In this document: in pieces, positions 2,216 to 19,536 of the stretch | Layout: each line of letters begins with the position of its first letter | Position numbering within the stretch: the first letter of the stretch is position 1 | Source of the DNA: Gemmatimonadota bacterium | GTDB taxonomy: Bacteria; Latescibacterota; UBA2968; UBA8231 | Length of the DNA stretch: 29,622 nt | Reading direction: 5' to 3' | Assembly (NCBI GenBank): GCA_002712305.1 | Contig: PATE01000130.1 | Coordinates: 1 to 29,622, forward strand | Notes under the pieces: model-generated | Database searches by the model: none | The model's input: only the letters and a program-made list of their open reading frames with translations | What the model was told of the DNA's origin: nothing | Program-made: the position numbers and the translations under genes

Positions 2216-3094
2216 ATGATCCCACGCGAGATCCTCGACAAAGTTCAGCTCATCGAGATTCAAACCGGCCGGTTGGTGACCAATCTCTTCGCCGGTGAAT
2301 ACCACTCGGTCTTCAAGGGCCACGGCATGGAGTTCGCCGAGGTACGTGAATACCAGCCCGGGGATGATGTGCGTTCCATCGACTGGAATGTCACCGCACG
2401 AGCCGGTGGGAAACCTTTCGTCAAGGTCTACGACGAAGAGCGGGAGTTGACGGTCGTTCTCATGGTTGATGCAAGTGCATCCGGCGCCTTTGGCAGTGAC
2501 CAACGACTCAAGGGTGAGGTCGCCGTAGAGATTTCTGCCGTGCTCGCTTTTTCAGCCATCAAGAACAACGATCGTGTGGGGCTGTTGATCTTTACCGACG
2601 AAGTCGAAGTCTTCGTGCCCCCCAAGAAGGGGAAGCGACACGTGCTCCGTGTCATTCGAGAGCTGCTCTACCACGAGCCACGCGGCCAGCGCACGTCCAT
2701 CGCTGCAGCATCCGACTATCTTGACCGCGTCGTACGTCGCCACAGTGTCGTGTTCCTGCTGTCCGATTTCATCGACGGCGACTACGAATCGGCACTGCGG
2801 CGTCTTCGTCGTCGTCACGATGTGGTTGCCGTAACGATGCAGGATCCACGCGAAGCCGAGTTGCCGGCGGTGGGACTGTTGGAACTGGAGGATGCGGAGA
2901 GCGGCGAGGTGGCTTTGGTCGATACGGACCATGCGCCGATACGACTGGCCTTCGCCGAGCGATGGGCGCGGCAAAGACGGAATCGGCAACGACTGTTTCG
3001 CCGTCTCGATATCGATGAGATCGAGATCGATACGACTCAACCCTATGTACAACCACTGGTGCGCTTCTTCGAAGGACGCATGCCCCGCTCCTGA
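2216..3094 (+). CDS. DUF58 protein (VWA-like partner of MoxR)
   Basis: 292 residues, the short soluble form of DUF58 without the two N-terminal membrane helices found in longer relatives. The DUF58 signature is at about 40-62 (FAEVREYQPGDDVRSIDWN then AR). A VWA-like fold follows, with a MIDAS motif DASAS at 85-89 (DxSxS) and a second metal-loop candidate at LLSDF. It starts 22 bp after moxR, the usual moxR-DUF58 pair, and is expected to be a MoxR client or adaptor in the cytoplasm. In most Bat clusters batA follows directly. Here a 59-bp gap and then an ABC transporter cassette come next. Family confidence is high and function is inferred from the family. Confidence 0.92.
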   Translation: MIPREILDKVQLIEIQTGRLVTNLFAGEYHSVFKGHGMEFAEVREYQPGDDVRSIDWNVTARAGGKPFVKVYDEERELTVVLMVDASASGAFGSDQRLKGEVAVEISAVLAFSAIKNNDRVGLLIFTDEVEVFVPPKKGKRHVLRVIRELLYHEPRGQRTSIAAASDYLDRVVRRHSVVFLLSDFIDGDYESALRRLRRRHDVVAVTMQDPREAELPAVGLLELEDAESGEVALVDTDHAPIRLAFAERWARQRRNRQRLFRRLDIDEIEIDTTQPYVQPLVRFFEGRMPRS

Positions 3095-3153
3095 TCGGTG
3101 CAGCGTTCTGCGAACAGCCACTGACCTGACCACTTCAGGGAGGTAATGGTACC

Positions 3154-4095
3154 GTGATCGAAGTAGATCAACTCTCAAAAGAGTATGGTGACGTGACAGC
3201 CGTCGACGGTGTATCGTTTCGTGCCGAACGAGGGCAGATCCTTGGTTTTCTTGGGCCCAATGGTGCGGGCAAGACGACGACGATGCGCATGTTGACCTGC
3301 TACCTGCCCCCATCGGCGGGAACGGCCAGTGTTGATGGTTATGACGTGGTCGATGAGTCGATGGAGGTGCGACGACGGATTGGCTATCTGCCAGAGTCTC
3401 CGCCCGTCTATATGGATATGACCGTCGATGCCTATCTGGGCTTTGTGGCTCGTATCAAGGGGGTGCCCACAAATCAGATGCGTGCGCGGATCGATGAGAC
3501 CATGGAGAAGACCGGCGTCGCCCACGTCCGGTCCAATGTGATCGGTCATCTGTCAAAAGGATATCGACAACGCGTTGGTCTGGCGCAGGCCCTCGTTCAC
3601 AACCCCAGCGTCCTCATCCTTGATGAGCCGACAGTGGGCCTCGATCCCAAACAGATCATCGAGATTCGCGAAGTGATCAAGTCCCTGCGCGGAGAACACA
3701 CGATCGTTCTAAGCACACACATTCTGCCCGAGGTCTCCATGACTTGCGAGAAAGTGGTCATCATCAGCCAGGGGCGAATTGTCGGTGAGGGATCTCCAGA
3801 GAGTCTGACGGCACAACTCAAGGAGAGCGATGTCCTGCACGCTCAAGTCCTTGGTCCAGTCGAGGCCGTGGGCGAAGCCCTTCGATCCATCGACGGCGTC
3901 CTCGACGCACGCCAGGAGGGGGATGACTCACAGGCCGACAGCTGGGTGATCTCTGTCACACCCGGACAGGACGTACGGGACGCGGTGAGTCGTGCCATCA
4001 TCGACGGGGGCTTCAGCTTGCGTGAGCTGCGGAGTCAGGACATGTCCCTCGAAGACATTTTCCTGCGTCTGACGACCGAAGAAACCACGGTTTAG
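3154..4095 (+). CDS. gldA: ABC transporter ATP-binding protein, GldA type
   Basis: 313 residues. Walker A is GPNGAGKT (34-41), the signature is LSKGY (133-137) instead of LSGGQ, Walker B is VLILDEP (153-159), and the switch histidine is in STH (187-189). The IGYLPE segment at 77-82 with no Q-loop glutamine and the LSKGYRQRVGLAQAL form are typical of the GldA/NatA-like group. About 100 residues after the nucleotide-binding domain form the usual extra C-terminal domain. The GTG start at 3154 is set by GGGAGG at 3138-3143; the nearby ATG at 3146 reads only three codons. It should energise the permease 12 bp downstream together with the GldG-like proteins. GldA/F/G were named for Bacteroidetes gliding, but homologues occur widely in non-gliding bacteria, so the symbol indicates family only. 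Confidence 0.88.
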   Translation: MIEVDQLSKEYGDVTAVDGVSFRAERGQILGFLGPNGAGKTTTMRMLTCYLPPSAGTASVDGYDVVDESMEVRRRIGYLPESPPVYMDMTVDAYLGFVARIKGVPTNQMRARIDETMEKTGVAHVRSNVIGHLSKGYRQRVGLAQALVHNPSVLILDEPTVGLDPKQIIEIREVIKSLRGEHTIVLSTHILPEVSMTCEKVVIISQGRIVGEGSPESLTAQLKESDVLHAQVLGPVEAVGEALRSIDGVLDARQEGDDSQADSWVISVTPGQDVRDAVSRAIIDGGFSLRELRSQDMSLEDIFLRLTTEETTV

Positions 4096-4107
4096 GGGGG
4101 ATAGACG

Positions 4108-4890
4108 ATGCGCAACCTATGGGCCATCTACACAAAGGAACTGAGGTCTTATTTCGTGTCGCCGGTGGCATACGTCATCGCCGGCGTCTTCTTGTTCCTG
4201 TCGGGTTATTTGTTCCGCAACATTCTCATGCAGTTCAACTTCTGGTGCATCCAGTTCAGCCAACGTGCTCAGTTCATGCAGGGGGGAATGCCAAATCTTA
4301 ATCTGAACGAGATGGTGGTTACCCAGTTCTTCGGCGTGATGGACTTCATCTGGCTTCTCGTGGTCCCCATGCTCACGATGCGGCTGCTGGCGGAGGAAAA
4401 GAAGAACGGGACGATGGAGTTGTTGATGACCTCGCCCATTTCCACCGTGGAGATTCTTCTCGGCAAATTTTTCGCCTGCCTCACCCTCTACATGACCATC
4501 GTTGCTCTGACCCTGGTGTATTGTGGGATCCTCGAACTGTACGGCGATCCCGATTGGGGACCGATCTGGTCCGCATATCTCGGATATCTGTTGCTGGGTG
4601 GGACCTTCATCGGCGTGGGCATGCTCGCTTCATCGGTGACGGAGAACCAGATCGTCGCCGTCCTGCTGGCCTTCGGTGCTCTGCTCACGCTGTGGCTGAT
4701 CGACTGGTCCGCCAGCTTCGCCGGACCGACGGCGGCGAAGGTGCTGCAGTATCTGTCGATCATCCAACATCTACAGGACTTTCAGCGAGGAGTGATCGAC
4801 ACCAGCGACGTCGTGTTCTACCTGTCGTTCATCTTCTTCAGCCTCTTCGTCACGACGCGGGTCCTTGAGTCGCGTCGTTGGCGCCGCTGA
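4108..4890 (+). CDS. gldF: ABC-2 type permease, GldF type
   Basis: 260 residues with about six hydrophobic helices, beginning with the short cytoplasmic head typical of ABC-2 permeases (WAIYTKELRSYFVSPVAYVI). After the second helix comes the conserved coupling segment RLLAEEKKNGTMELLMTSP and then PISTVEILLGKFFA, diagnostic of the GldF/NosY-like permeases. It begins 12 bp after the ATPase stop, with a GGGGGAT ribosome site, and ends 22 bp before the GldG-like gene. It is expected to form the membrane pore of a transporter with the ATPase before it. The substrate is unknown; in this family, export or extraction of an envelope component is usually presumed. The C terminus ends RVLESRRWRR, the usual length for the family. 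Confidence 0.88.
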   Translation: MRNLWAIYTKELRSYFVSPVAYVIAGVFLFLSGYLFRNILMQFNFWCIQFSQRAQFMQGGMPNLNLNEMVVTQFFGVMDFIWLLVVPMLTMRLLAEEKKNGTMELLMTSPISTVEILLGKFFACLTLYMTIVALTLVYCGILELYGDPDWGPIWSAYLGYLLLGGTFIGVGMLASSVTENQIVAVLLAFGALLTLWLIDWSASFAGPTAAKVLQYLSIIQHLQDFQRGVIDTSDVVFYLSFIFFSLFVTTRVLESRRWRR

Positions 4891-4912
4891 CGATGAAGGG
4901 GAGAGAAAGAGG

Positions 4913-7900
4913 ATGAGTCGTCTGGCTTTTTTGTCCCGCTTCGGTGCGGCCATCGCTGTGGCGGGTGGAGTTCTTCTCACGGCGGGCGTGCTGTCGATGG
5001 CGTTGGCAAGTGGCGATACCGTTCTGCCCGCTGCATCAGGGGTGTTGGGCGTCCTGCTCGTGCTGCTGGCGGCGGTGGTGGATCGCGAGATGTTCCAGCG
5101 ATACGGACGCTGGCTCAATGCATTCTGGGGCACGGCGATGGTGCTTGCCATCGTGGGTATGCTCAATTTTCTCGGTCAACGATACAGTGACCGGTTTGAC
5201 CTGACGGAAGGGCAACTTCACAGTCTCTCCGATCTGACGGTACAGACCCTCGAGGGGCTCGAGACAGACGTGACGGCCCTTGCTTTCATGGAGGGTGGGG
5301 CAAACCTCGAACTGCGATCTCTGCTCGAGCAGTTCGGCGTCCATGGCGGTGGGCGATTCCAGTTCGAGTTCATCGATCCCGATCGCGATCCCGCACGGGC
5401 CCAGGCCTTCGACATCACCGCATACAACACACTCGTCGTCGAGGCCGAGGGGCGGCGTCAGAATGTGATGGACCTGAGCGAGAAAGAGATCACCAATCGG
5501 ATTCTCAAGGTGGTCCGCAATCGCCAGGAGCGAGTGTATGTCAGCGTCGGCCACGGCGAACGGGCCATACAGGCCGGTGACCGTAGTGGCCTCGAGCGCA
5601 TGAGGCAGCGACTTCAGGAAATCGACTACGTTGTGCGTGATTCACTGTTTCTGGCACGTGAGGGTCGGGTGCCGGAGGACTGTCGAGTTCTCATCATCCC
5701 CGGGCCAAGTTCCTCGATGCTTCCAACGGAAGTCGATGCCGTCCGGGCCTACCTGGAGCGAGGCGGCGCGGTACTTCTGCTCACCGACCCGGGCGTCGTG
5801 ACGGGTCTCGAGTCTCTCGTTGCCGAGTGGGGGATTCGGCTCGGCGATGACTTCGTCATCGATACCAGCGGCATTGGCTCCCTTTTCGGCCTGGATTTCA
5901 CGATACCCGTCGCCGCTGACTACGATGATCAGCACCCCATCACACGAAAACATCGATCCGGCTCCGTCAGTACGTACGAGTTCGTTCGTTCCGTCCAGCT
6001 AGATTCGCAGTCAGTGGCAACGGCGCAATTGGAGGCGTCTGCCCTTGTGTTCACATCCGACCAGAGTTGGGGCGAGGTCGATCAAGAGGCATTGACACCC
6101 GGGCGGGGTGATGTGACGGTCAGTTTTGACGAGGCTGATCTGCCAGGACCGGTGTCGCTCGCGGTGGCCTCACGAGACAGCGCAGGGGAGGGTGGACGTC
6201 TGGTCGTGTTCGGTGACTCTGACTTCGCCACCGACGGCTACTTCGATATGCAGGGGAACGGTGATCTGGCGCTGAATGCGATCAGCTGGCTCGCCGAAGA
6301 TGAGCAGCTCATCTCCATTCGACCGCGTGAGGCCGGGTTTCGCCCGATCTCGCTGAGCGAGAGTCAGTCGGAATGGTTGTTCTGGTTCACCATCATTGTG
6401 TATCCCGGCGTGATTGCGGCGCTCGGTTTCTTTGTCGTGTCCCGCGGTGGACGTTGGAGCGTCAAGGACCTTGTGGGTGCAACGGTTGGCGTCGCGCTCT
6501 CGCTGGGTGTCGTCGCTCTGCTGAACATCTTGGGCGACCGGCATCACAAGCGGATCGACGTAAGTGAAGACAATCGCTTCACCCTCGCCTCGCAGAGTGT
6601 GGACGTGCTCGATGAACTCACCGAGAGTGGAAAACGGGCCGCTGTGCGCGTCTTCATGAGTGATCAGGAGGGCGTACCGTATCAGGAACTCCTGCGTGAG
6701 TTTGAGTATGGGGCAGACGACTTTGGTTTCGAGGTCGTGGACCCGCAGAAAGAGGCGTTGCAGGTGCGACAGTACGGCGTGCGCGAGCGGGGTGCTTCAG
6801 TCCTGGAAGTTTCGGGAGAAGGGCGTCTGGTCACCGAACGATTCGTGGAACAGACCGAACAGGCGCTGAGCAACGCGCTGCTGCGAGCATTGCGTGCCGA
6901 AGATCGGCGGATCTCCGTCGTAGGTGGGCATGGTGAGGGAGATCTCACGCAAGTCGACGGTGAGGGGTTCAGCATCTTCAGTGGTCGCCTGAAGGAACTC
7001 AATGTGGACATCGAGACCGGTATCGAACTGACCGCTCTCGACGACGCAGATGCGGCAGAAGGGCATCTGCTGCTGCTGTTGGGGCCAGAACGAGCCCTCT
7101 CTGCCGACGAGCAGGTGCATCTGGCACGTTATCTGGAACGCGGTGGTGACCTGCTGCTTCTCGTAGATCCGGGGGGCGTGCTGGGCGTGGAGGATCTTCT
7201 TTCCTCCGAGTACGGGATTGAACTGGGCGATGATTTCATCGTCGACCTGTCCGGCCTGGGGCAGATGCTCGGTACGAGTGTCTCTGTTCCCGTTGTGATC
7301 ACCTATGCGGATCATCCCGTGACTCAGAAGATGGGCCGAGGAGGTATGTCCTACTTCCCGCTGGCACGAACCGTGTCCAGCATGCCACGCGCCGTGGATG
7401 CCACAGAACTGGCATTCACAGACCGTCGAGCCTGGGGTGAGTCAGATCTTTCACCTCTGTTCCATGAGAGTGGGGGCGGAGAAGTGGAATACGAACCCGA
7501 CTCAGATCGCCCGGGTCCGCTGTCATTGGCCGTCGCGGTGCACACCCTGGGCGATTCTGCCGAGGAGGGGAATCTGACGCGAATTGTCGTGATCGGTGAC
7601 AGTGACTTTGCCCGCAATCAGCATTTCTCTGAGCAGGGGAACGGCGAACTCATCATCCACGCCAGTCGCTGGCTGATCGAAGGGGAGGATGCGCTCACCA
7701 TTCCTGCCAGAACGGCGCGATTCAATGCCATTCAACTTGGCGAAGATGCCGGCGCGATGCTGTGGTTGTCCGTCTTTGTGCTGCCCTTTGCGGTGGCACT
7801 GTCGGGTTTCGTCATCATGCTGAAGCGAGGTTACGAGACCTACGCGGCAGGTTTCGTGGCATGGCTGATTTATTCCTTTGCCGCTGCCGGTTTCTACTAC

Positions 7901-8236
7901 TTCGCCATTGGCGTGATCGGAGCAAGCGAAGGCGGCGTGATTCGCGCTCCCGTGGGCCTGGCCCTATGCCTGCTCAGTGCCGGAATCGCCTACGGTCTGT
8001 CACGTAGAGAACCACTGATATGGCCAGTGGCCCTCGTGGCTGCCATAGGGAATGTGGGACTCACCTTTGTGCTGGTGCCCAACGATGTGCTGCAACTGGT
8101 CGTGGCAGGACTCTTCGTGGCCAATAGCTGCATTCTGGTGTGGATTCGACGGGATTTTCTCCCTGGCCACGCCGTCGCATCTGACTCGGCCGTGACTGTA
8201 ACGGTGCCGGCTGATTCACACGCTCGGGAGAAGTGA
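4913..8236 (+). CDS. Giant GldG-like protein with two tandem GldG copies
   Basis: 1107 residues from the ATG at 4913 (GGGGAGAG ribosome site); a TTG at 4865 in frame would overlap the permease gene and is less likely. GldG-like ABC auxiliary proteins are normally about 450-550 residues, and this one holds two full copies in tandem. Matching landmarks recur about 460 residues apart: VGHGE versus GGHGE, GGAVLLLTDPG versus GGDLLLLVDPG, GDDFVIDTSG versus GDDFIVDLSG, and GDSDFA followed by QGNG in both. Copy 1 has three N-terminal membrane helices, a large extracytoplasmic domain (about 75-470) and a helix near 490. Copy 2 restarts with a helix (about 525) and ends in several extra helices (about 945-1080). 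It probably works with the ATPase and permease before it and the DUF4340 protein after it. The duplication is visible directly; its effect on function is unknown. Confidence 0.88.
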   Translation: MSRLAFLSRFGAAIAVAGGVLLTAGVLSMALASGDTVLPAASGVLGVLLVLLAAVVDREMFQRYGRWLNAFWGTAMVLAIVGMLNFLGQRYSDRFDLTEGQLHSLSDLTVQTLEGLETDVTALAFMEGGANLELRSLLEQFGVHGGGRFQFEFIDPDRDPARAQAFDITAYNTLVVEAEGRRQNVMDLSEKEITNRILKVVRNRQERVYVSVGHGERAIQAGDRSGLERMRQRLQEIDYVVRDSLFLAREGRVPEDCRVLIIPGPSSSMLPTEVDAVRAYLERGGAVLLLTDPGVVTGLESLVAEWGIRLGDDFVIDTSGIGSLFGLDFTIPVAADYDDQHPITRKHRSGSVSTYEFVRSVQLDSQSVATAQLEASALVFTSDQSWGEVDQEALTPGRGDVTVSFDEADLPGPVSLAVASRDSAGEGGRLVVFGDSDFATDGYFDMQGNGDLALNAISWLAEDEQLISIRPREAGFRPISLSESQSEWLFWFTIIVYPGVIAALGFFVVSRGGRWSVKDLVGATVGVALSLGVVALLNILGDRHHKRIDVSEDNRFTLASQSVDVLDELTESGKRAAVRVFMSDQEGVPYQELLREFEYGADDFGFEVVDPQKEALQVRQYGVRERGASVLEVSGEGRLVTERFVEQTEQALSNALLRALRAEDRRISVVGGHGEGDLTQVDGEGFSIFSGRLKELNVDIETGIELTALDDADAAEGHLLLLLGPERALSADEQVHLARYLERGGDLLLLVDPGGVLGVEDLLSSEYGIELGDDFIVDLSGLGQMLGTSVSVPVVITYADHPVTQKMGRGGMSYFPLARTVSSMPRAVDATELAFTDRRAWGESDLSPLFHESGGGEVEYEPDSDRPGPLSLAVAVHTLGDSAEEGNLTRIVVIGDSDFARNQHFSEQGNGELIIHASRWLIEGEDALTIPARTARFNAIQLGEDAGAMLWLSVFVLPFAVALSGFVIMLKRGYETYAAGFVAWLIYSFAAAGFYYFAIGVIGASEGGVIRAPVGLALCLLSAGIAYGLSRREPLIWPVALVAAIGNVGLTFVLVPNDVLQLVVAGLFVANSCILVWIRRDFLPGHAVASDSAVTVTVPADSHAREK

Positions 8237-8243
8237 ACGGATC

Positions 8244-9725
8244 ATGCATTTGAGGACGAACCTTGTCATCAGTGTGGTCTTCGCTGGGTTGCTCGCATTT
8301 GTGTATTTCCACGAGATCAAGGGGGGTGAAAAGCGCGAGCTTGAGGCTGAGCGTGCGCGCCAACTCGTCGATTTCAGCGACCACGAAGCACGGCGACTGA
8401 CCATCGATGGGGGAGACACGACACTCGTCATCGAACGAGCCGATGACGTGTGGTACATCCGGGAACCTCTGCAGACCGGCGCAGATGCCGAAGCGGTCGA
8501 CCGTTTCCTGCGGAGTCTGAAGGAGGCGGAGATCGAAGGGTACGCCGTGCAGGATAGCACATCCATCACACAGGACAGCTCGATACTCGCAGTCTATGGA
8601 CTTGATGAACCACGGCTTCAGGTGCATCTGGAATTGGCCGAGAGTGCTGAGCAGATCCTCGATACACTTCGATTCGGTGCCGACACGCCCACGGAGCGGT
8701 TCACCTATGTACAGCGAAGTGGTGCCAATCCAGAGATTCGGACGATGCGGGCATGGAGATATGACAATCTGGCCAAAGGGCTGTTCGATCTGCGCGATCG
8801 CAAAGTGCTGCACTTCGACAAAAGCGAGATCGTCGGCATGCGCCTGGCCTTCCGGGAGGGTGATCTCGATCGGCTGATCGTCGCCGAAAGGCGCGAGGAA
8901 AGATGGGCACTCACCTCTCCCCTCGCTGTTGCGGGCGATGATGCCGCCTTCGACGAGATCCTTACCCGTCTGGGAAATGCCCAGATCGTCTCCTTTGAAT
9001 ATGAGGAACCCACCACGGCTGATCTGGAAGCAGCCGGATTGTCGGACGGCGATGAGACGGTCCATCTGGCACTGCTCGTCGACGCCGACCGTGCTGAGAA
9101 GCATCTGAGACTCGGGAAGCGGTACGAGCAAGGGGATCACCTGGCCATCGACACCAGCCGCGATCCGATCTTCGTCATCGACTCGACGGTGGTGATCCAG
9201 TTGAAGAAGAAACTGGATGACCTGCGTGATCGGAAGCCTTTCGACATCGCGCCTGAGAGCGTACTCGGGATCGATCTGACGGTCGCGAATCAGACCTTGT
9301 TCCGTGCCATGAAAGACAGTTCCGGGTCAGGGTGGCACCTGGCATCCAACCCTGATCGTGAAGCCAAGACCTGGCGTCTCAACGATCTGCTCACCTCGAT
9401 CGCCGATCTACGCGTCGAATCCTTCGTGGCCGACGCCCCAGATGTGCTGAGCCTTGATGTGGTGTCCTTTGGCTTCGACCAGCCGGCGCTGCGCCTGGCA
9501 CTGCATCTGGGGGTGGGGGAGACGATCTTCGTCGAGGTGGCTGAACACGAGGGAACCGTCTACGCCCGGCGAGCCGATGTGCCGAGTATCTATACCGTGG
9601 CAGAGACGGCTCTGACGGATCTGGCGCCAACACTCGATGATGTGGCGATGGCCCCGCAGCAGGCCACGGCGGATCCGGATGCGGCCACCGAGGTGACGCT
9701 GGCTCCGGGGAATAGCGGCTCGTGA
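8244..9725 (+). CDS. DUF4340 membrane-anchored protein
   Basis: 493 residues. One N-terminal membrane helix (about 6-25, NLVISVVFAGLLAFVYF) anchors a long extracytoplasmic part built from repeated DUF4340-like units. Each has a beta strand of the form RLTIDGGDTTLVIER followed by a DxWYIREPL segment, then GADAEAVDRFLRSL; similar units recur near residues 195-260 and 345-410. DUF4340 genes are habitually found directly downstream of GldG-type genes and are regarded as part of the same ABC system. The ATG at 8244 lies 7 bp after the previous stop, and its own stop overlaps the next GTG by four bases, so translation is probably coupled. Biochemical function is not known for this family. Confidence 0.82.
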   Translation: MHLRTNLVISVVFAGLLAFVYFHEIKGGEKRELEAERARQLVDFSDHEARRLTIDGGDTTLVIERADDVWYIREPLQTGADAEAVDRFLRSLKEAEIEGYAVQDSTSITQDSSILAVYGLDEPRLQVHLELAESAEQILDTLRFGADTPTERFTYVQRSGANPEIRTMRAWRYDNLAKGLFDLRDRKVLHFDKSEIVGMRLAFREGDLDRLIVAERREERWALTSPLAVAGDDAAFDEILTRLGNAQIVSFEYEEPTTADLEAAGLSDGDETVHLALLVDADRAEKHLRLGKRYEQGDHLAIDTSRDPIFVIDSTVVIQLKKKLDDLRDRKPFDIAPESVLGIDLTVANQTLFRAMKDSSGSGWHLASNPDREAKTWRLNDLLTSIADLRVESFVADAPDVLSLDVVSFGFDQPALRLALHLGVGETIFVEVAEHEGTVYARRADVPSIYTVAETALTDLAPTLDDVAMAPQQATADPDAATEVTLAPGNSGS

Positions 9726-10693
9726 GTTCGAACGCAGCCATCCGCCGGCCCGTGGCGATGGCTGTGTGCGCCGCCGTGGGGCTGAGCCTGTTTGCTGTCC
9801 CCGAAGCCGCCATCGCGCAGCTTTCGGTCAAGGTTCAGACGGACACGCACCAGGTTCACATTGGCGACCCGATTCAGTTGCGACTCCGTGGGACCCCCCT
9901 CGAGCCGCAACAACAGGTGCTTTTCCCTCCGGACTTTGATGACCCCTGGCCCGACCACGTGTCAACGAGCCGGCTCGTATCTCCCAGCAGCCCACCGGGA
10001 GAAGCTGTGTACGATCTGCGTCTCTACGAGACGGGCGAGGCCGAACTTCGCGGACTGAACATCGACGTCGTCGACGGCGGAGACACGCTCTCTCTCCAGA
10101 CCGCATCGATCCGGATCGACGTCCTCGCTGTGCGCGAGGAAGGTGAGCAGGATCTGCGGATGATCAAGCCACCGTGGGCGATCGCCGGCGGAATCCCGGT
10201 CTGGCTCGTGGCGATGCTCGCGGCCCTGCTCGCCTTAGCCATCGCCTGGATTGTGTATCGCAAGATGCAAGGTCGAACACCTGCTGTGATTCCAAAGCCT
10301 GTGATACCCACAGACTATCGACGCGAGTTCTCACGAATCGAGGCGATGGGTCTGCTCGAGCGCGGTGCGGTAAAACTCTATTACACCCACTTGTCTGAGA
10401 TTCTGCGAGGATTCCTCGAGGACCACACAGAGGTCGACGCCCTGGAACGCACGACGGAAGAGATCGATCTCGACCTGCAGGCCCACGAGCACGTTGATGA
10501 ATCTCTGCAGCAAGACGTCATCGGTTTTCTGGACGACTGCGATCTGGTGAAGTTCGCCCGGGCCGAGCCAGATCTGCCACAGGCAAAGAGGATGCCCGAT
10601 CGAGGGCGGCAGATCATCGATGACGTCGAACAGATCGTTGCTGCTGCACAGGCGAGGCTCGAGACACCGGATGCCGTGGAGCAGACCGCATGA
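9722..10693 (+). CDS. BatX/DUF4381-like membrane protein
   Basis: 323 residues from the GTG at 9722, which overlaps the previous stop (GTGA). A signal peptide ends near AIA-Q (32/33). Residues 33-137 form a beta domain resembling the start of BatD proteins (VKVQTDTHQVHIGDPIQLRL). Then come the linker DLRMIKPPW, one membrane helix (about 158-180) and a cytoplasmic helical domain (YRREFSRIEAMGLLERG, then FLDDCDLVKFARAEPD). The layout is the same as BatD but half the size, as in the DUF4381/BatX genes placed before batA in MoxR clusters. It marks the start of the Bat half of the operon, and its stop overlaps batA by four bases. The architecture is well supported. The exact subfamily name is less certain. 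Confidence 0.75.
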   Translation: MSSNAAIRRPVAMAVCAAVGLSLFAVPEAAIAQLSVKVQTDTHQVHIGDPIQLRLRGTPLEPQQQVLFPPDFDDPWPDHVSTSRLVSPSSPPGEAVYDLRLYETGEAELRGLNIDVVDGGDTLSLQTASIRIDVLAVREEGEQDLRMIKPPWAIAGGIPVWLVAMLAALLALAIAWIVYRKMQGRTPAVIPKPVIPTDYRREFSRIEAMGLLERGAVKLYYTHLSEILRGFLEDHTEVDALERTTEEIDLDLQAHEHVDESLQQDVIGFLDDCDLVKFARAEPDLPQAKRMPDRGRQIIDDVEQIVAAAQARLETPDAVEQTA

Positions 10694-11664
10694 TGGATCT
10701 TCTGCGAGAGATGCGTTTCGCCGAGCCCGTCTGGCTGCTGGCCCTGTTGGTTCTACCCTTGCTGGTGGTTCGGTATCGTCGGCAGCGTCCTGGCAGTCTG
10801 CAATTCTCAACCCTGAATCACGTTCACAATCTGCCGGCAAGTTTCTGGACGAGAATGCGGGGTGTCGTGTTCGCGCTGAAACTGATCGCGCTGGCATTGA
10901 TCATCATGGCCATGGCGCGTCCACAGAGTGGGGACACGGTCGTCGACGTGACGGCAGACGGTGTAGATATCATTCTCGTGCTCGATGTGTCCAGCAGCAT
11001 GCAGGTAAAGGACCTGGGCCCCGACAATCGTCTTGCGGTCGCCAAGGACGTGGTCGCCGAGTTCGTCGAAGGGCGCCTGACTGATCGCCTCGGAATGGTC
11101 GTCTTCGCGGGGGAGAGTTTCACGCAGTGTCCGCTCACCCTCGACTACGACGTACTTCTATCCTTCCTCGAGCAGATTCGGATCGCCGAACAGGACTGGG
11201 ATGGGACGGCCATCGGGATGGCCATGATCAACGCGACCAACCGGCTCCGCGATGCCGACGGGCGCAGCCAGGTGGTCATCCTGTTGACGGACGGCGTCAA
11301 CAATGCAGGCGAAATCGACCCCCTTACGGCGGCTGAAGTGGCCGCTGCTGTCGGGGTGCGTGTCTATGCCATCGGTGTAGGCGCACCCGGATCTGGTGGT
11401 CGAGGACGTGGTCGTGGCGTCGATTTCGACGAGGAAACCCTGAAACAGGTGGCGAGTCTGACCGGCGGGCGATACTACCACGCCACATCGGGCGAGAAAC
11501 TCGCCGAGATCTATGACGAGATCGGCAAACTCGAGACCGCCGAGATCACCACTCAGCTCCATGTGGAATACACCGAACGATACGGGGCTTTTCTCTGGCC
11601 CTGCCTCGTCTTGGTCCTGTTCGAGTTCACCCTGGCACGAACGCGCCTGCGAACGATCCCCTAA
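10690..11664 (+). CDS. batA: BatA-like VWA-domain membrane protein
   Basis: 324 residues. Two N-terminal helices (about 13-29 and 57-77) are followed by a VWA domain with an intact MIDAS: DVSSS at 99-103, a GTAIG threonine loop and LLTDG. A C-terminal helix (about 299-315) ends in ARTRLRTIP. This is the BatA plan, with the VWA domain facing the periplasm between membrane helices. Two ATG codons in a row open the gene; the first overlaps the stop of the gene before (ATGA). A short Gly/Arg-rich insert (GSGGRGRGRG) lies near residue 240. Bat proteins work with MoxR ATPases and have been linked to aerotolerance and envelope stress in Bacteroides and Leptospira. The role in this organism is inferred. 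Confidence 0.9.
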   Translation: MMDLLREMRFAEPVWLLALLVLPLLVVRYRRQRPGSLQFSTLNHVHNLPASFWTRMRGVVFALKLIALALIIMAMARPQSGDTVVDVTADGVDIILVLDVSSSMQVKDLGPDNRLAVAKDVVAEFVEGRLTDRLGMVVFAGESFTQCPLTLDYDVLLSFLEQIRIAEQDWDGTAIGMAMINATNRLRDADGRSQVVILLTDGVNNAGEIDPLTAAEVAAAVGVRVYAIGVGAPGSGGRGRGRGVDFDEETLKQVASLTGGRYYHATSGEKLAEIYDEIGKLETAEITTQLHVEYTERYGAFLWPCLVLVLFEFTLARTRLRTIP

Positions 11665-11675
11665 AGGATCTGAGA

Positions 11676-12698
11676 ATGCGATTCGCTCATCCCGAGGCAG
11701 CATGGATCCTGGTGGCGGTTCCCGTCATGATGCTCGTTCTGGCGTGGTCAGCACGGCGCAGCCATGCTGCACTACTGAGCGTCGTGGGTGACCAGGTGCG
11801 TGAACGATTGACGCGTTCGGTCCATCAGGGTGCTCGCCGATGGCGTCGGTCATTGGGCGTGCTGGGTGTGCTCATGCTGGCAATCGCCCTCGTGGGTCCC
11901 CAGTTCGGGCTGCAACTGTCGATGGCTCAGCGCCGAGGGGTGGACGTGGTCATCTGCCTCGACCTGTCACGAAGCATGCTCGCAGAGGATATTCGTCCGA
12001 ATCGTCTCGATCACGCCAGATACGCCATCGGCGAACTTGTAGATGGCCTTGGGTCGGATCGGGTCGGTCTCGTCGTGTATGCGGCACATGCCTTCGTTCA
12101 GTGTCCGCTGACGCTCGACTCGGGGGCCCTGCGACTGCTGTTGAACTCCGTCTCCGCTGGTGATCTGCCTTCGCAGGGAACGTCGCTGGAAAGAGCGCTC
12201 GAAGTGGCCGGGTCCAGTTTCGATCCTGACGATCGGCAACACAAAGTCGTCGTCGTTTTCAGCGATGGAGAAGACCACGTCGGTGATGGTTCGGGCGCGG
12301 CGGCGAGGCTGGCGGAGGAGGGCGTCCGTATTTTCACCATCGGCGTCGGCACGGAGGAAGGCGAACTCATCCCGATCCAGGGCGAGGCTGGGCGCGACTA
12401 TCACAAGGATCGCGCCGGCAACTACGTCAAGACGCGTTTGGACGAGACGGAACTGCGTGATATCGCCAGGGCGGGGGAGGGAGCCTATTTCCACAGCAGT
12501 CTTGGGGGGAACGAACTGGATGCCCTGCTGGATCGCATCGACGGACTGGACGAAAAACAGTTGGGTGAGGAGAGCTTTCGATCCTATGAAGAACGATTCC
12601 AATGGCCTCTGGGTTTGGCGTTGGTCTGCTTCATCGCCGAGGCTCTGATTTCGGATCGCCAACGTCAGCGCCAGACGTGGCGGGGAAGATTCGCATGA
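11676..12698 (+). CDS. batB: BatB-like VWA-domain membrane protein
   Basis: 340 residues, a paralogue of the gene before it, with the same helix-helix-VWA-helix plan. The MIDAS is DLSRS (96-100), with a TSLERAL threonine loop and VFSDGEDH. After the metal site come the BatB-type segments GTEEGELIP and a Tyr/His/Lys-rich DYHKDRAGNYVKTRL, which are usual for BatB and absent from BatA. A C-terminal helix lies at about 309-326. It starts 11 bp after batA, with AGGATCTGAGA as a weak ribosome site, and its stop overlaps batC by four bases. All metal-binding residues are present, so it is probably functional. BatA and BatB are thought to act together in the membrane with the TPR protein encoded next. 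Confidence 0.9.
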   Translation: MRFAHPEAAWILVAVPVMMLVLAWSARRSHAALLSVVGDQVRERLTRSVHQGARRWRRSLGVLGVLMLAIALVGPQFGLQLSMAQRRGVDVVICLDLSRSMLAEDIRPNRLDHARYAIGELVDGLGSDRVGLVVYAAHAFVQCPLTLDSGALRLLLNSVSAGDLPSQGTSLERALEVAGSSFDPDDRQHKVVVVFSDGEDHVGDGSGAAARLAEEGVRIFTIGVGTEEGELIPIQGEAGRDYHKDRAGNYVKTRLDETELRDIARAGEGAYFHSSLGGNELDALLDRIDGLDEKQLGEESFRSYEERFQWPLGLALVCFIAEALISDRQRQRQTWRGRFA

Positions 12699-13561
12699 GC
12701 CGACGACACCCCCCACATCACCATCCCTGTCCTCTTCGTGGCGTTTTGACGCCGGCGCTGCTGTGCGGAGTCATCCTGCTGGGAGAGCCCGTCCTGGCCC
12801 AGACGGTTGGCGATCCCGTCGCTTCACGGAGTGCGAAGGCGCGCGAACACTATGACGAGGGTCGCTATGAAGAGGCCCTTCGTGCCTATCGCGATGCGCT
12901 GGTCGAGCGCCCCGGATCAGAGCCTCTGCATCTGAATGTGGGTGACGCGCTGTACGAGTTGGGTGACTATGAGGCTGCCGCTGGTGAATTCGAGCAGGTG
13001 ACCCTCGCCGAAGACGACGGACTGGCCGCCGAGGGCTACTTCAACCTTGGAAACAGTCGTTATCAACTGCAGGACTATCCCGCCGCCGTGGAGGCATACC
13101 GCGAAGCTCTCCGACGGACTCCTGGCGATGTGGATGCGAAGGCCAATCTCGAGCTGGCGCTGCAGATGCTGCAATCACCACCTCCACAGCAACAGCCATC
13201 AGACGGTGAGCAGCAACAGGATCAGGATCAGAGCGAACAGTCTGACGAACAAGGACAGGATCAGCAGCAGCAACAACCCGCCGAATCAGACTCGGAGCAA
13301 CCACAGGAGCCGCCATCGACGCCGCAACCTCAACAGGACCCCGGCGAAGAATCCGAGCCACAAGACTCCCAGTCGTCTGAAGAACAGACAGAGGGCGAAC
13401 AGACAGAGGAGGACCCCGCCCCGCTCGATTCGGAGGATGATCAGCGAATGGACGAGGAGGAAGCGGAACAGTTGCTCGATGCACTCGGTGATCGCGAGGA
13501 AGAGGGGCAGAAGCGCCGCTTCAGAATGACGCGACGCGGCTCACAGGAGCGTGACTGGTGA
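12695..13561 (+). CDS. batC: BatC-like TPR protein with acidic Gln-rich tail
   Basis: 288 residues from the ATG at 12695, which overlaps the batB stop (ATGA). An in-frame start at 12602 would lie inside batB and is rejected. A His/Arg-rich head and hydrophobic stretch make a signal peptide, probably cut near VLA-Q (35/36). Three TPR units follow (about 46-150; for example GRYEEALRAYRDALVERPGS and YFNLGNSRYQLQDYPAAVEA). Residues about 165-250 are a low-complexity run of Gln, Glu, Asp, Ser and Pro. The conserved Bat-TPR ending returns at the C terminus: RMDEEEAEQLLDALGDREEE and a terminal Asp-Trp. The protein is probably a periplasmic scaffold for BatA/BatB. The low-complexity part is common in this family but of unknown use. 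Confidence 0.87.
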   Translation: MSRRHPPHHHPCPLRGVLTPALLCGVILLGEPVLAQTVGDPVASRSAKAREHYDEGRYEEALRAYRDALVERPGSEPLHLNVGDALYELGDYEAAAGEFEQVTLAEDDGLAAEGYFNLGNSRYQLQDYPAAVEAYREALRRTPGDVDAKANLELALQMLQSPPPQQQPSDGEQQQDQDQSEQSDEQGQDQQQQQPAESDSEQPQEPPSTPQPQQDPGEESEPQDSQSSEEQTEGEQTEEDPAPLDSEDDQRMDEEEAEQLLDALGDREEEGQKRRFRMTRRGSQERDW

Positions 13562-15384
13562 CGTTCCGAGGCATCAGATGGGTGGTGGCCGCATTCATAT
13601 TGCTTGCCGCCAGCGGCATCGTCGATGCGCAGGATATCGAGGTGACCTCGCAGGTAGATCGCCGACAGATCGCGGCCAATGAAGCGGTCAAGCTGACGCT
13701 GACGATCACTTCCGCCCGCCAGTTGGTACATGTACCCGCGCCGCAGATCGACCTGAGTGCCTTCGAGGTCTATGGCCCGTCGGTCTCCACGCATATGCAG
13801 ATCGTCAATCGCCGCACCTCCTTCAGTCGCGACTTGGAATACACCCTCTACGCGCGTAAGGCAGGGCGCCACACGATCGGTGCGGCGGCACTCGAAATCG
13901 ACGGGAAAACGTACCAGACCGAGCCGATTCGAATCGATGTCTCCTCCGGTCGAAGGAAATCGGGCCAAGGCAACAAGGCGTCCGGCGGCGGTCAGGGCGG
14001 TGGCGATGATCTGTCGGACAATCTCTTCCTGCGCGCACGACTCGACCCCGACACGGTCTACGTCAACGAACAAGTGACGGCCAGTTTTGATCTGTGCTAT
14101 CGCTATAATCTGCGGGATGTGGGTTTTTCTGAGATCCCCACATTCAGTGGTTTCTGGACGCACGAACTATTCGTCGCCCAGCGACTTGATCCACAGGTAG
14201 AGAAGATCGGCGACCGACAGTTCCACGTCGCCCCACTGCGCCGGATGGCCTTGTTTCCCGCTCGCGACGGGACCCTCCAGATCGACGCCATGGCCGTCAC
14301 GTGCGCTATTCCGCAACGCCGGCAACGGCGCAGCGCCTTCGATGCGTTCTCTCTGTTCGACGATCCTCTGTTCGGTCGCACGCAAAGCGTGATGGTTCGC
14401 AGCTTGCAGTTGCCCGTTGTTGCCCGGCCTTTGCCCGAGGCTGATCGCCCCCCGGCGTTTTCGGGCTTGGTGGGCCAGATCGAGATACAGGCAAGTGCTG
14501 AGCCGCGACGCGTGGCTACCGGCGACCCGGTGACCCTGCGTGTTCAGGTGGCGGGCATTGGCAATCTCCACTCCATGAAGGCGCCGGTCCTGCGCATCGA
14601 TGGGTTGAAGATCTACGAACCAAAGGGGGAGATGCAGCAGACGGTCAGTGAAGATGGACGACTCGGTGGGGCGGCAACGTATGAGTACATCGTGATTCCC
14701 GAACGCAGTGGTGGCTTTACGATTCCGCCCATAGAGGTGGCCTACTTCGATCCCACCCGTCGACAATATCGCCTCGCATCAACCGACCAGATTGCCCTGC
14801 TCAGTGAAGGCGAGACGGTGACAAACGCGTCTGCCGCCCTCCACGACATGACGCGTAGCGAGATCGCCGAGTTGGGCAGTGACATCCGGCATATCAAGCC
14901 TGACGTTTCCGAACTCGAGGCGCCACGGGAGATAGACCGTCAGGTCTGGTTCTGGGCAGTGCAACTCCTGCTGCCTATGGGGTACGTAGCACTCTCCCTG
15001 TTCAGGCGACATCAGGAACGACTGCTTGGTGACGTCGGCTACGCCCGCCGTCGGGGCGCCAGCGATGCAGCGCGCCGGCGCCTCCAGGAAGCGGCAGAGG
15101 CTCTCGATTCCACGGAGCCCATCTTCTTCGCTACCTTGCACACGGCGTTGGTGAGCTTCATTGGCGACCAGATCAACGAGCCCACACCCGGACTTGATCG
15201 GGTACGTTGCCGTTCCCTGTTACGCGCTGGTGGTGTGGTAGAGCCGACGCTTGAGCGTCTCGACCAATTGTTGGAGATCTGCGAAGAGGGTCGTTTTTCC
15301 CCGGGTCAGACACCGCAGGCCAAGCGCAGGAATGTCTTGGCCAGGAGCGAGGCCGTCATCGACGAATTGCGAGAGGCGATATAG
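13558..15384 (+). CDS. batD: BatD-like protein (oxygen-tolerance family)
   Basis: 608 residues from the GTG at 13558, which overlaps the batC stop (GTGA). A signal peptide ends near VDA-Q (24/25). The extracytoplasmic part contains at least three Ig-like beta domains of the BatD family: QDIEVTSQVDRRQIAANEAV at about 25-44, a second opening at DNLFLRARLDPDTVYVNEQV, and a third at ASAEPRRVATGDPVTLRV. A Gly/Ser/Lys-rich linker (about 130-158) separates the first two. One membrane helix (about 462-482, WFWAVQLLLPMGYVALSLF) precedes a cytoplasmic helical domain. It has twice the bulk of its smaller relative at 9722 but the same order of parts. It is expected to be the large periplasmic platform of the Bat complex. 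Confidence 0.88.
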   Translation: MTFRGIRWVVAAFILLAASGIVDAQDIEVTSQVDRRQIAANEAVKLTLTITSARQLVHVPAPQIDLSAFEVYGPSVSTHMQIVNRRTSFSRDLEYTLYARKAGRHTIGAAALEIDGKTYQTEPIRIDVSSGRRKSGQGNKASGGGQGGGDDLSDNLFLRARLDPDTVYVNEQVTASFDLCYRYNLRDVGFSEIPTFSGFWTHELFVAQRLDPQVEKIGDRQFHVAPLRRMALFPARDGTLQIDAMAVTCAIPQRRQRRSAFDAFSLFDDPLFGRTQSVMVRSLQLPVVARPLPEADRPPAFSGLVGQIEIQASAEPRRVATGDPVTLRVQVAGIGNLHSMKAPVLRIDGLKIYEPKGEMQQTVSEDGRLGGAATYEYIVIPERSGGFTIPPIEVAYFDPTRRQYRLASTDQIALLSEGETVTNASAALHDMTRSEIAELGSDIRHIKPDVSELEAPREIDRQVWFWAVQLLLPMGYVALSLFRRHQERLLGDVGYARRRGASDAARRRLQEAAEALDSTEPIFFATLHTALVSFIGDQINEPTPGLDRVRCRSLLRAGGVVEPTLERLDQLLEICEEGRFSPGQTPQAKRRNVLARSEAVIDELREAI

Positions 15385-16127
15385 TGCGCTGGGTGCGGTG
15401 GTGCATCGTGATCTTCCTCGGGATCGCCGGTTCTGCCGAAGGGCAGTCCGCGGCAGCCGGCCTCTATGTCGAAGGCAATCAACTCTATCGTGCGGGTGAC
15501 TTTTCCAGTGCTCGACTGCGGTACGAGGCAGCCGTCCGCACAGGCATCAGGGATCCGCGCCTGTTCTACAATCTCGCCAATGCGACCTACAAGACCGGCG
15601 AGTTGGGCCTGGCGATCGTACTGTATGAGCGGGCGCTGCGCCTGGCTCCTCGAGATGAAGACATCCTGGCGAACCTACGGTTTCTACGGCGACTCAAACG
15701 AGATCGAGATCCCGAACCCGCGTCGGGTTTGGGGGGCTTTATAGAGCGGGTATATCTGTGGCCCACGAGCAATGAACTGGCAGTGGGATGGTTGCTGAGT
15801 CTGCTCGGTCTGTTTGGATCAGCAGGTTGGCGCCGCTGGCGCCAGATGCCCGTCCTTCACACCGCAGTCGCTGTTGGTCTGCTGCTATGTCTGTCGATCG
15901 GAGGATTCACCCTGAGTCGGTCTCAGCGCGATGGACGGGTGGAGGTCGTGGTGACGCATGCTGAGGGGATTGCACGCAGTGGTCCGGATGCCCAGCAGAC
16001 GGAGGTCTTCGTCATTCACGAAGGGACCAAGCTCGTCGTGGAGCGAAGCGAGGGTGACTGGTATCTGGCGCGCCTGCCGAGCGGACTGGGTGGCTGGCTG
16101 CCCGCCTCGGTTCTGACCGAGATCTGA
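15384..16127 (+). CDS. batE: BatE-like TPR protein with C-terminal SH3 domain
   Basis: 247 residues from the GTG at 15384, which shares one base with the batD stop. A signal sequence (about 1-21, ending SAEGQ) is followed by TPR units (YVEGNQLYRAGDFSSARLRY, then FYNLANATYKTGELGLAIVL). Two membrane helices follow (about 131-147 and 157-174), and then a bacterial SH3-like domain (about 187-247) with GDWYLARLPSGLGGWLPASV. This TPR-helices-SH3 order is that of BatE. It is the last gene of the long operon. I see no classical terminator after it, only a short TCCGG/CCGGA hairpin without a T-run. The SH3 part may bind peptidoglycan or another Bat protein; that is inference from the domain family. 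Confidence 0.85.
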   Translation: MRWVRWCIVIFLGIAGSAEGQSAAAGLYVEGNQLYRAGDFSSARLRYEAAVRTGIRDPRLFYNLANATYKTGELGLAIVLYERALRLAPRDEDILANLRFLRRLKRDRDPEPASGLGGFIERVYLWPTSNELAVGWLLSLLGLFGSAGWRRWRQMPVLHTAVAVGLLLCLSIGGFTLSRSQRDGRVEVVVTHAEGIARSGPDAQQTEVFVIHEGTKLVVERSEGDWYLARLPSGLGGWLPASVLTEI

Positions 16128-16367: not shown

Positions 16368-18422
16368 GTGAAATACCTATTTACCGGTGGCGCATCGGGG
16401 GGGCACATCTATCCAGCCCTCGCCGTGGCAGACGAGATCCGGCGGCGCGAACCGGACGCCGAGTTCCTCTATGTCGGTGTTGCAGGCCGGCTCGAGGAGA
16501 GAGTGGTTCCCGGCCGAGGCTACAAACTGCAATTGGTCCGCAGCCGACCCTATCCACGTTCATCTTCACCGTGGGCACTGACCAGGTTTGCCCTGACGCT
16601 TAGCATCGGTGTGCTGCAGGCTATGGTGGTCCTGCTGCGCTTCCGTCCGCAGTTGATCTTCGGCACCGGTGGTTTCGTCAGCGCGCCGATTCTCTTCGCC
16701 TGTGGAATCCTGAAACGGGTCGGCCTCTGTCGAGTCGAGGTTTTTGCCTACGAGCCGAACGCTCACCCCGGACTGCTGAATCAGGCGGTGGGACGGCTCG
16801 CCAGCCGGATCGGCGTCGGCTTTGAGGAGGCGGGGCGCTGGTTTGACATGAAGCGAGTCGCCGTGGTCGGATTCCCCGTGCGGCGAGAGGTGCTCCAACT
16901 CGACCGCTCCACAGGCCGCAGGCAGTTGGAGATCCCAGCGGATCGATTCGTGGTGTTTGTTTTTGGTGGCTCGCAGGGCTCGAGGGTAATCAATCGCGCT
17001 CTTGTCGAAGCCCTGCCGATTCTGATGTCGCATTCCGAGCAGATCGTGGTCCTCCACGCAACCGGTCGTACTCAGACTGCAGACTACGATGCCGTCCTGG
17101 ATACCGAACGGCGGCTCGAAGAAGCAGGTATCGACGAAAGCAGCACTGATTGGTATCAGCGCTGCGAGTATCTGGAGCAGATCGAACATGCCTATGCAGC
17201 GGCGGATCTCGTGGTCTGCAGGGGGGGGATGAGCACGCTGACCGAGGTCGGCGTGAGTGCCATCCCATCGATCATCATCCCTCTTTCGACGTCGGCCGAG
17301 GATCACCAGGCGATCAATGCTCGAGAAATTGAGCGCCGCGGGGCAGCGAGTGTCTTGTACGAAGAGGCCTGCTGGATGGAGTCTGGCGAGGTCGGCACTC
17401 GGGTCAGCGGGCGACGTCTTGCCGATGCCATCGTCGAATACGTGAACGATCCCGAGAAAGCGAAAGCGGTAGGGGCCGCGGCTGGTGTCATTCCCAGACG
17501 CGATAGTCTGGAGTGCATCGTGGATGAACTCCAGGGGCTGGTCCAGGGCCGGCGGCCCGCCCCTCTTAAGCTGGAGTTTCCATCGCCGCAGACGAATCTC
17601 CCCACTGACCCGAATCGTTTCTTACGCCACGTACGTGATCGCCTCGACCAGGTCGACCATCGGATCGAGGCCCTGCCCGATCACGATCTGGCCTACCTGC
17701 GATATCAGGCCGATCGGCATCTGGCGTCGAGCGCGTGGTATGAGATTCCCCTCGGGCGCCGAAATGTGGGTGTGAAACTGGTCGGTTGGCTGCGCTACAC
17801 AGATCGCCTCGATCTGGTCCTTGAGATTCTCAGAAACCGTCGATCGGCTGGTCTTGTGAAGAGATGGGTCGGTGGGGACTTCATACATCCGGGAATCCTT
17901 CGACGAAACGCTGTTGAATATGCACTGGCGAGAATCGGCCTTGCAGAGGGGGGAGCGCCACTTCGTCAGGCATTGCTCGAGGCCCTCAAGACGGACCCCT
18001 ATTTCGAGGTTCGGCGCGCTACAGCCGTCGTGCTGGGGGAGCAGGGGGTTGCAGGGGATCAGGACGTGGAAGGGGCGTTGATGGATGCCCTCGGCGATGA
18101 CGCACCCAGTGTCGTCACCGCCGCCATCGCCGCGCTTGGGCACGTAGGGTGCGATGGAGAGCGGCTGCTGCCACGCCTGCGTGCCTTCTATGTCCATGAT
18201 GATTGGCAGTATCGGCAGCAGACGGTGATTGCCCTGGACCGACTTCTCCAGCGGCACATTATCGATGGGGCAGATATCGTGGACGATCTGGATGTCATTC
18301 TGTCCACATCGCCAAACTTCGAGCCTGCCTTCCCCCTCAAGCGCAGCCTCGACGAGCTGGCGACACGTGTCCGGACCCACATGACACCAGATGGCTCTAG
18401 TCGCGCCGGCGCAGGGGGATAG
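16368..18422 (+). CDS. murG: MurG glycosyltransferase fused to a C-terminal HEAT-like domain
   Basis: 684 residues, where MurG is normally about 360. Residues 1 to about 395 are MurG-like (UDP-GlcNAc to lipid I, making lipid II on the inner membrane face). The landmarks are GGASGGH (7-13), FGTGGFVSAP (98-107), YEPN (128-131, usually HEQN), FGGSQGSRVIN (199-209) and CRGGMSTLTE (284-293) with DHQAINA after it. After a Pro-rich linker (about 398-416), residues 417-684 are helical. From about 509 to 645 they show HEAT-like repeats, for example FEVRRATAVVLGEQG, then APSVVTAAIAALGHVG, then WQYRQQTVIALDRLL. The GTG at 16368 has GAGG five bases upstream. mraY follows four bases later. The enzyme identity rests on motifs and on that neighbour. 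The helical part is probably a protein-binding scaffold; its partner is unknown. Confidence 0.85.
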   Translation: MKYLFTGGASGGHIYPALAVADEIRRREPDAEFLYVGVAGRLEERVVPGRGYKLQLVRSRPYPRSSSPWALTRFALTLSIGVLQAMVVLLRFRPQLIFGTGGFVSAPILFACGILKRVGLCRVEVFAYEPNAHPGLLNQAVGRLASRIGVGFEEAGRWFDMKRVAVVGFPVRREVLQLDRSTGRRQLEIPADRFVVFVFGGSQGSRVINRALVEALPILMSHSEQIVVLHATGRTQTADYDAVLDTERRLEEAGIDESSTDWYQRCEYLEQIEHAYAAADLVVCRGGMSTLTEVGVSAIPSIIIPLSTSAEDHQAINAREIERRGAASVLYEEACWMESGEVGTRVSGRRLADAIVEYVNDPEKAKAVGAAAGVIPRRDSLECIVDELQGLVQGRRPAPLKLEFPSPQTNLPTDPNRFLRHVRDRLDQVDHRIEALPDHDLAYLRYQADRHLASSAWYEIPLGRRNVGVKLVGWLRYTDRLDLVLEILRNRRSAGLVKRWVGGDFIHPGILRRNAVEYALARIGLAEGGAPLRQALLEALKTDPYFEVRRATAVVLGEQGVAGDQDVEGALMDALGDDAPSVVTAAIAALGHVGCDGERLLPRLRAFYVHDDWQYRQQTVIALDRLLQRHIIDGADIVDDLDVILSTSPNFEPAFPLKRSLDELATRVRTHMTPDGSSRAGAGG

Positions 18423-18426
18423 GAGA

Positions 18427-19536
18427 TTGCTCTACTACCTGGGGACTTACCTACAAGACCACATCGCTGCCCTTTCCTTCCTTCGCCTGCTGGATTCGAT
18501 CAGCTTTCGAGCCTTAGGGGGAGCGATCACGGCGATGTTGTTTACCATCACCTTTGGTGGTCGCATCATCCTCGCACTCTACAGCAGCGGGCGTCGGGAC
18601 AAGAGTCGTTCATACGACCATTTTCCCGTTACGGGCAAAGGAGCAACCAAGACCTACGGTGGCCCTCTCGTGGTCGCCTCGATCGTGACCTCCGTTCTGC
18701 TCTGGGGGAAGTTGCACAATCCCTTTACACTGATCTGCTTGTTTGCCGTTTTCTGGTTTGCTGGGCTTGGGTACATCGACGATCACCTGAAAGTCCGACA
18801 TGGCGCCAGTGACCATGGCCTTTCCGAGACGGCCAAACTTGCTCTGCAGCTACTCTACGGGGTCGGGTTCGGTCTGTTCTTTGTTGTAGAGGGATGGTCG
18901 CCCATGCCGCCCGGTCTGGCCACGCAACTATTCGTCCCGTTCTTCAAAACACCGATCATTGACTTGGGATGGGGCTACGTTCCTTTCATCGTGTTCACCG
19001 TGATCGCCATCTCAAACTCGGTCAATATCGCCGACGGCATCGACGGGTTGGCCATTGTGCCTGTCGCCTTTGCCGTCGCCGTCTACGCCGTGTTCGCCTA
19101 TGTATCGAGTCATGCGCGGATCTCCGAGTTTCTCATCTTCCCCTTCGTGCCTGGCGCCGAGGAAGTCGCCATCATCTGTTCTATCGTTTTTGGCGCCTGC
19201 CTCGGTTTCCTGTGGTTCAACTCGTATCCCGCAAATGTCATCATGGGTGACACGGGATCGATGGCATTGGGAGGGCTGGTGGGGACGATTGTCGTGTTGG
19301 TGAAACAGGAATTCCTGTTCATCATCGTCGGTGGCATCTTCGTCACCGAGGCCCTCTCGGTGGTGATCCAGGAGAAGGTGGGAATCAAGTGGTTGGGGCG
19401 GCGCTTTTTCCTCAGCGCGCCTATTCACCACCACTTCCAGTCCAGAGGTCTGGCGGACACGAAGATCGTGATTCGTTTCTGGATCGTGGCAGGGATCCTC
19501 GCCCTGGCAGGCCTGGCGACGCTGAAGATTCGTTAA
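18427..19536 (+). CDS. mraY: MraY, phospho-MurNAc-pentapeptide transferase (lipid I synthesis)
   Basis: 369 residues from the TTG at 18427, chosen because LLYYLGTYL matches the start of MraY proteins and GGGGGATAGGAG precedes it. An ATG at 18391 would add 12 atypical residues and overlap murG. The protein is polytopic, with about ten helices. Catalytic landmarks are present: YIDDHLK with Asp118/Asp119, NSVNIADGIDGLA (197-209), MGDTGS with Asp275, and PIHHHFQSRG with His334-336. The C terminus (VIRFWIVAGILALAGLATLKIR-like) also matches E. coli MraY from memory. It joins phospho-MurNAc-pentapeptide to undecaprenyl phosphate. The usual GTPTMGG loop reads GATKTYGG (72-79), a visible departure. 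It sits after murG instead of in a normal division/cell-wall cluster. Identity is firm. Confidence 0.93.
   Translation: MLYYLGTYLQDHIAALSFLRLLDSISFRALGGAITAMLFTITFGGRIILALYSSGRRDKSRSYDHFPVTGKGATKTYGGPLVVASIVTSVLLWGKLHNPFTLICLFAVFWFAGLGYIDDHLKVRHGASDHGLSETAKLALQLLYGVGFGLFFVVEGWSPMPPGLATQLFVPFFKTPIIDLGWGYVPFIVFTVIAISNSVNIADGIDGLAIVPVAFAVAVYAVFAYVSSHARISEFLIFPFVPGAEEVAIICSIVFGACLGFLWFNSYPANVIMGDTGSMALGGLVGTIVVLVKQEFLFIIVGGIFVTEALSVVIQEKVGIKWLGRRFFLSAPIHHHFQSRGLADTKIVIRFWIVAGILALAGLATLKIR

Follow-up and report, generated by a model that had tools for sequence, protein, structure and literature searches.

MurG fused to a HEAT-repeat tail in many little-known bacterial lineages suggests that MraY and MurG, and sometimes MurJ, form one physically linked unit

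Introduction

Two questions are raised by the gene at positions 16368-18422 of the window (the whole 29,622-nucleotide stretch of DNA analysed): whether a MurG glycosyltransferase is genuinely joined to a long HEAT-repeat tail, and to which partner such a tail might tether lipid II synthesis. An earlier note, made from the sequence alone, read the gene as a MurG fused to a helical, HEAT-like domain, and named a flippase, the divisome and the Bat/ABC system encoded upstream as possible tether targets.

The MurG-HEAT gene

The gene is a single unbroken open reading frame of 684 codons on the forward strand, with a GTG start and a stop codon at 18420-18422. Its MurG part (residues 1-390; 16368..17537, +) contains both GT28 domains of Pfam above cutoff, namely Glyco_transf_28 (PF03033; residues 4-148, E 1.9e-20) and Glyco_tran_28_C (PF04101; residues 195-332, E 7.4e-26). 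The NCBIfam murG model (TIGR01133) spans residues 2-338 (E 4e-61) and is by far the best model, though its score of 207 bits falls short of the equivalog cutoff of 250.25 bits and the protein is therefore regarded as a divergent MurG. The closest solved structures, by alignment and by fold search, are the MurG enzymes of E. coli (1f0k) and P. aeruginosa (3s2u). Alignment with 1f0k matches the GGTGGH-like loop (GGASGGH in the window), the GGSQG loop, the CRxGxxTxxE segment and the Gln and Asn of HQxxNA, in keeping with the earlier claim that the substrate motifs are kept; the order of the motifs is also that of standard MurG. No other Glyco_tran_28_C protein is found in the 4.77 Mb genome, making this its sole MurG. 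The window gene is an intact MurG joined to a HEAT tail, and its domains and motifs mark it as a predicted lipid II synthase.

What sets the protein apart from standard MurG, besides the score below the equivalog cutoff, is an extension of ~290 residues with HEAT repeats. This begins with a linker (residues 391-415; 17538..17612, +), of which residues 403-410 are modelled with low confidence, and continues as the tail proper (residues 416-684; 17613..18419, +). Because the MurG part ends at about residue 390 and the tail profile begins at 416, the boundary originally placed at residue 417 is right. The tail is recognized by HEAT_2 (residues 535-623, E 4.7e-13; 49.7 bits against a Pfam cutoff of 27.7), by a profile of its own family (E 6.4e-107, a value that is high by construction), by an entirely helical structure model, best at approximately residues 510-640 of the protein, and by standalone homologues elsewhere. 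It shares its repeat signature and helical repeat fold with HEAT-repeat proteins in general (HEAT_2, HEAT and designed alphaReps), but represents a specific family with conserved motifs of its own (W..RN.GVK, GFxRRN and DPYxEVR). Its matches are limited to general HEAT models, with no dedicated one. Fold searching did not provide a name for the tail, as it returned only designed HEAT/armadillo proteins of a generic kind (best E 1.6e-3), and a profile search again yielded mostly the same kind of protein. A Pfam search found no ligand-binding or signalling domain in the tail.

Authenticity and distribution of the fusion

The full-length fusion is present in 21 of the 25 genomes of the window's family, and two of these 21 are single-contig assemblies; in two others it is truncated at contig ends, and the remaining two are incomplete genomes with no MurG. 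Elsewhere in the 64-genome sample of the window's phylum, the fusion occurs in two genomes of family f10, which belongs to another class, and the MurG matches of families f2 to f9 stop short of the tail. It is also found in 13/13 sampled genomes of the phylum with UBP11 and Delongbacteria records, where one copy is interrupted by the end of its contig. A survey of 386 genomes spread around genome G065 adds 15 genomes with the plain fusion, counting one that repeats the f10 genome G016.

Comparison with a same-genus relative yields pN 0.19 and pS 0.76 for the tail and pN 0.14 for the MurG part, with pS near saturation in both; as pN is well below pS in the tail, the tail is under selection as a protein. 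The possibility that a frameshift, missed stop or misassembly joined two genes, in which case close relatives would encode a normal-length MurG, was raised together with the original claim. It is rejected as exceedingly improbable, given the conservation of full-length fusions within the family and across further lineages and the low pN relative to pS in both parts. The reading of the gene as a real fusion is thereby upheld.

The HEAT module and its linkage to mraY

In the window, the gene that follows the fusion is mraY (18391..19536, +), which overlaps the 3' end of the fusion gene, though its real start may lie a few codons downstream. An mraY in the same direction is found downstream of MurG-HEAT at nearly every other locus with enough downstream sequence. 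This is the opposite of the usual arrangement: where an ordinary MurG locus shows both genes, mraY precedes murG. The exception is the Delongbacteria/UBP11 phylum, in most genomes of which mraY lies away from MurG-HEAT (the two are adjacent at loci L096 and L097).

A HEAT-only tail profile (A5), run across the same 386 genomes as the fusion survey, detects the module in 37 of them, as MurG-HEAT (28 genomes), as MurG-MurJ-HEAT (one) or as an unfused gene (eight). Three of the unfused genes stand between murG and mraY in a murG-HEAT-mraY operon (L131, L132 and L232) and five have no adjoining murG (L194-L198); a sixth HEAT-mraY pair with murG elsewhere is that of genome G018 (L045), from the window's class. 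Since the profile already contained L131, L132 and L045, the new unfused finds number six. For all nine unfused genes (the eight of the 386-genome set plus that of G018), the next gene on the same strand is mraY. The linkage of HEAT and mraY genes therefore holds independently of fusion to MurG. The unfused cases are counted as retention rather than separate gains, and three of the genomes concerned (G118, G263 and G395) share one phylum.

The match in genome G179 is weak (1.6e-11) and was accepted after its position beside mraY had been checked. Matches of similar weakness (~1e-11) at ten other places in the 386 genomes were taken as generic HEAT proteins; none adjoins the MraY match of its own genome, where such a match was listed. 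A 662-residue open reading frame downstream of the G018 HEAT gene, initially a candidate unknown gene, proved to be an antisense frame over mraY.

A distinct MraY subfamily

The MraY of the window scores 277 bits against TIGR00445, above the NCBIfam equivalog cutoff of 192, matches MraY structures in the PDB (8g01 and 4j72) and keeps the catalytic columns. A phylogenetic tree unites the MraYs of HEAT genomes in a single clade (41 sequences against 37 others; support 100/100) with a long stem; the window's MraY is a member, and so are those of Delongbacteria, in which mraY and MurG-HEAT lie apart. Excluded from the tree were six highly divergent sequences from families f3/f4 and two that carry a large insert. 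A profile of the clade gives a similar picture, with all 31 of the 386 genomes whose MraY exceeds 480 bits carrying HEAT; the best HEAT-less genome reaches 442 bits and the HEAT genome G179 447. The tree is the firmer test, because HEAT-linked MraYs were themselves the input for the profile. Among the MraYs in the tree, HEAT goes with one subfamily and is absent from the rest.

HEAT-type MraYs retain the catalytic Asp, Asn and first His columns without variation. A large share of the columns that set the clade apart most clearly falls within segments 55-65, 122-130 and 308-333 (E. coli numbering), which we take to be cytosolic from the established topology of MraY. Compared with studied MraYs, loop His65 is missing in 41/41 members of the clade, Glu329 is mostly replaced by Gln, Trp333 is lost and an additional residue follows the LQ/IQ position.

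These features bear on the main rival to the adaptor role proposed below, according to which HEAT is a regulatory or allosteric subunit of this MraY subfamily that tunes lipid I output to a signal or protein ligand, with fusion to MurG serving mainly stoichiometry or feedback rather than channelling. HEAT does stay with mraY where MurG is unfused and of the ordinary type, and among the altered loops are the HHH loop, which lies near the active site, and the conserved one around E. coli His65. Repeated joining to MurG, and once to MurJ, nevertheless fits better with bringing enzymes together, and the tail carries no domain in Pfam through which a ligand or signal would be sensed. A regulatory role is on balance unlikely, though it is the alternative to be taken most seriously.

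Further variation in MraY was observed in individual genomes. The enzyme of HEAT genome G339 (L115:2415-3866, -) has a cysteine-rich insert of ~80 residues between membrane segments, and a similar insert in that of HEAT genome G203 (L116) is suggested by a split match. Two families of the window's class, f3 and f4 (L152-L160), have a highly divergent MraY, ~29% identical to that of the window, in which PLHDHFRH replaces the HHH motif; their genomes yielded no HEAT module.

Variation of MurG and MurJ beside HEAT-mraY

The fused and split MurGs form one clade (support 96/100; the divergent split MurG of G179 was left out of this tree), whereas the MurGs of three HEAT-mraY genomes (G018, G118 and G263) cluster with ordinary MurGs. 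It follows that murG has been joined to, split from or replaced beside the HEAT-mraY pair. In three genomes of one phylum (G390, G452 and G453), MurG, MurJ and HEAT are encoded by one open reading frame of 1323-1329 codons (L127:5034-8981, -; L237:2427-6395, -; L238:1314-5300, +), with mraY directly downstream and ~140 unclassified residues between MurG and MurJ. An FHA-like segment considered for this interval in G390 was dropped, there being no Pfam match to it at E values up to 1. The murJ gene also lies directly upstream of MurG-HEAT at the two f10 loci (G016 and G017) and in G224. Of the tether targets first suggested, the flippase thus gains support.

A further explanation is that the function of HEAT is minor or unrelated and that its gene only travels with mraY in an ancient operon, in which case the fusions would be neutral accidents of adjacency. 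The unfused cases may indeed share one ancestral gene order, as the single MraY clade suggests, and three of them belong to one phylum. However, the HEAT-mraY pair has persisted over deep divergence through gains and losses of murG, purifying selection acts on the tail and MraY has changed in step, leaving this explanation very unlikely.

HEAT as a candidate adaptor between MraY and MurG

The tail is probably a cytosolic adaptor, dedicated to one MraY subfamily, that docks MurG on MraY so that lipid I passes to lipid II synthesis. Whether fused to MurG or encoded beside it, HEAT would hold this peripheral enzyme against MraY at the inner membrane face; lipid I made by MraY would reach MurG almost without diffusing and be converted there to lipid II, which some lineages would pass onward to the flippase MurJ. 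The HEAT-MraY contact, the channelling of substrate and the use of the altered loops as a docking surface are inferred. This reading is favoured because the window and most lineages have mraY immediately after MurG-HEAT, because every unfused HEAT gene has mraY next to it, because HEAT genomes share a single MraY clade with changed cytosolic segments and invariant catalytic columns, because both split murG-HEAT-mraY operons and MurG-MurJ-HEAT genes before mraY exist, and because an association of MurG with MraY is known in E. coli (PMC2170320). Counting against it are the six genomes in which HEAT adjoins mraY and MurG is unfused elsewhere, where HEAT must act without a fused MurG, the separation of mraY from MurG-HEAT in most of the Delongbacteria/UBP11 phylum and the fact that gene order can persist for co-expression alone. 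The conserved fusion and the tethering role envisaged in the earlier note are both supported, though the main partner, MraY, had been missed. A stronger version, that HEAT is an overlooked core subunit and obligate partner of one MraY subfamily, assembling a stable, partly covalent MraY-MurG(-MurJ) unit for making and flipping lipid II in deep lineages, is a serious possibility to which we give slightly less than even chances.

There are precedents for holding cytosolic and membrane enzymes of peptidoglycan synthesis together, MurG included. In Bordetella, a MurE-MurF fusion is known and MurG acts as a scaffold (PMC6420597); in E. coli, cross-linking captured MurG together with MraY in a complex, and MreB is also present in a MurG-MraY-MreB complex (PMC2170320). 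These systems differ in that contacts are made via Mur ligases or MreB and involve no HEAT repeats, whereas the link in the window would be a dedicated, MraY-paired domain. A native mass spectrometry study explains the hand-over from MraY to MurG to MurJ by rising lipid affinity (PMC9046198), to which a HEAT tether would add. No report of MurG or MraY with HEAT repeats, or of a MurG-MurJ fusion, was found in the open-licence PMC papers searched, where absence is not proof. Each component (MurG, MraY, MurJ or HEAT repeats) is familiar in itself; what seems to be undescribed is the architecture, together with its operon and the matching clade of MraYs.

Lipid intermediates may move between MraY, MurG and MurJ within a physical complex or by diffusion, and in the HEAT lineages natural fusions and a candidate dedicated adaptor tie all three steps together. 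The HEAT lineages provide a system for direct tests of contact, channelling and flippase coupling. In addition, an MraY subfamily with cytosolic loops unlike those of studied enzymes may matter for MraY inhibitors.

Neighbouring genes and other candidate partners

Directly upstream of the fusion, positions 1198-16127 of the window encode, in one direction, MoxR, DUF58, an ABC transporter, ABC_transp_aux, DUF4340, BatA, a TPR protein, BatD and a TPR-SH3 protein. HEAT repeats bind many proteins, and the tail could instead tether MurG to MreB, the divisome, the Mur ligases or this Bat/ABC system. Such a reading is encouraged by the Bat-type genes immediately upstream and by the known association of MurG with MreB and Mur ligases (PMC2170320; PMC6420597). 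The Bat/ABC run is conserved beside MurG-HEAT solely within the window's family, while linkage to mraY and membership of the MraY clade extend across lineages; a tether to one of these other partners is accordingly a distinctly unlikely alternative to docking on MraY. The same restriction led to rejection of the idea that the tail connects MurG to the Bat/ABC genes, and no evidence was found to link the tail to this system or to the divisome, both suggested earlier as targets.

A large gene encoding a gingipain-like C25 peptidase lies near MurG-HEAT at another locus (L125:2-3790, -), where the domain was confirmed. Clusters with a large gene of this type also occur near MurG-HEAT at L123, L124 and L126, giving four related lineages in total.
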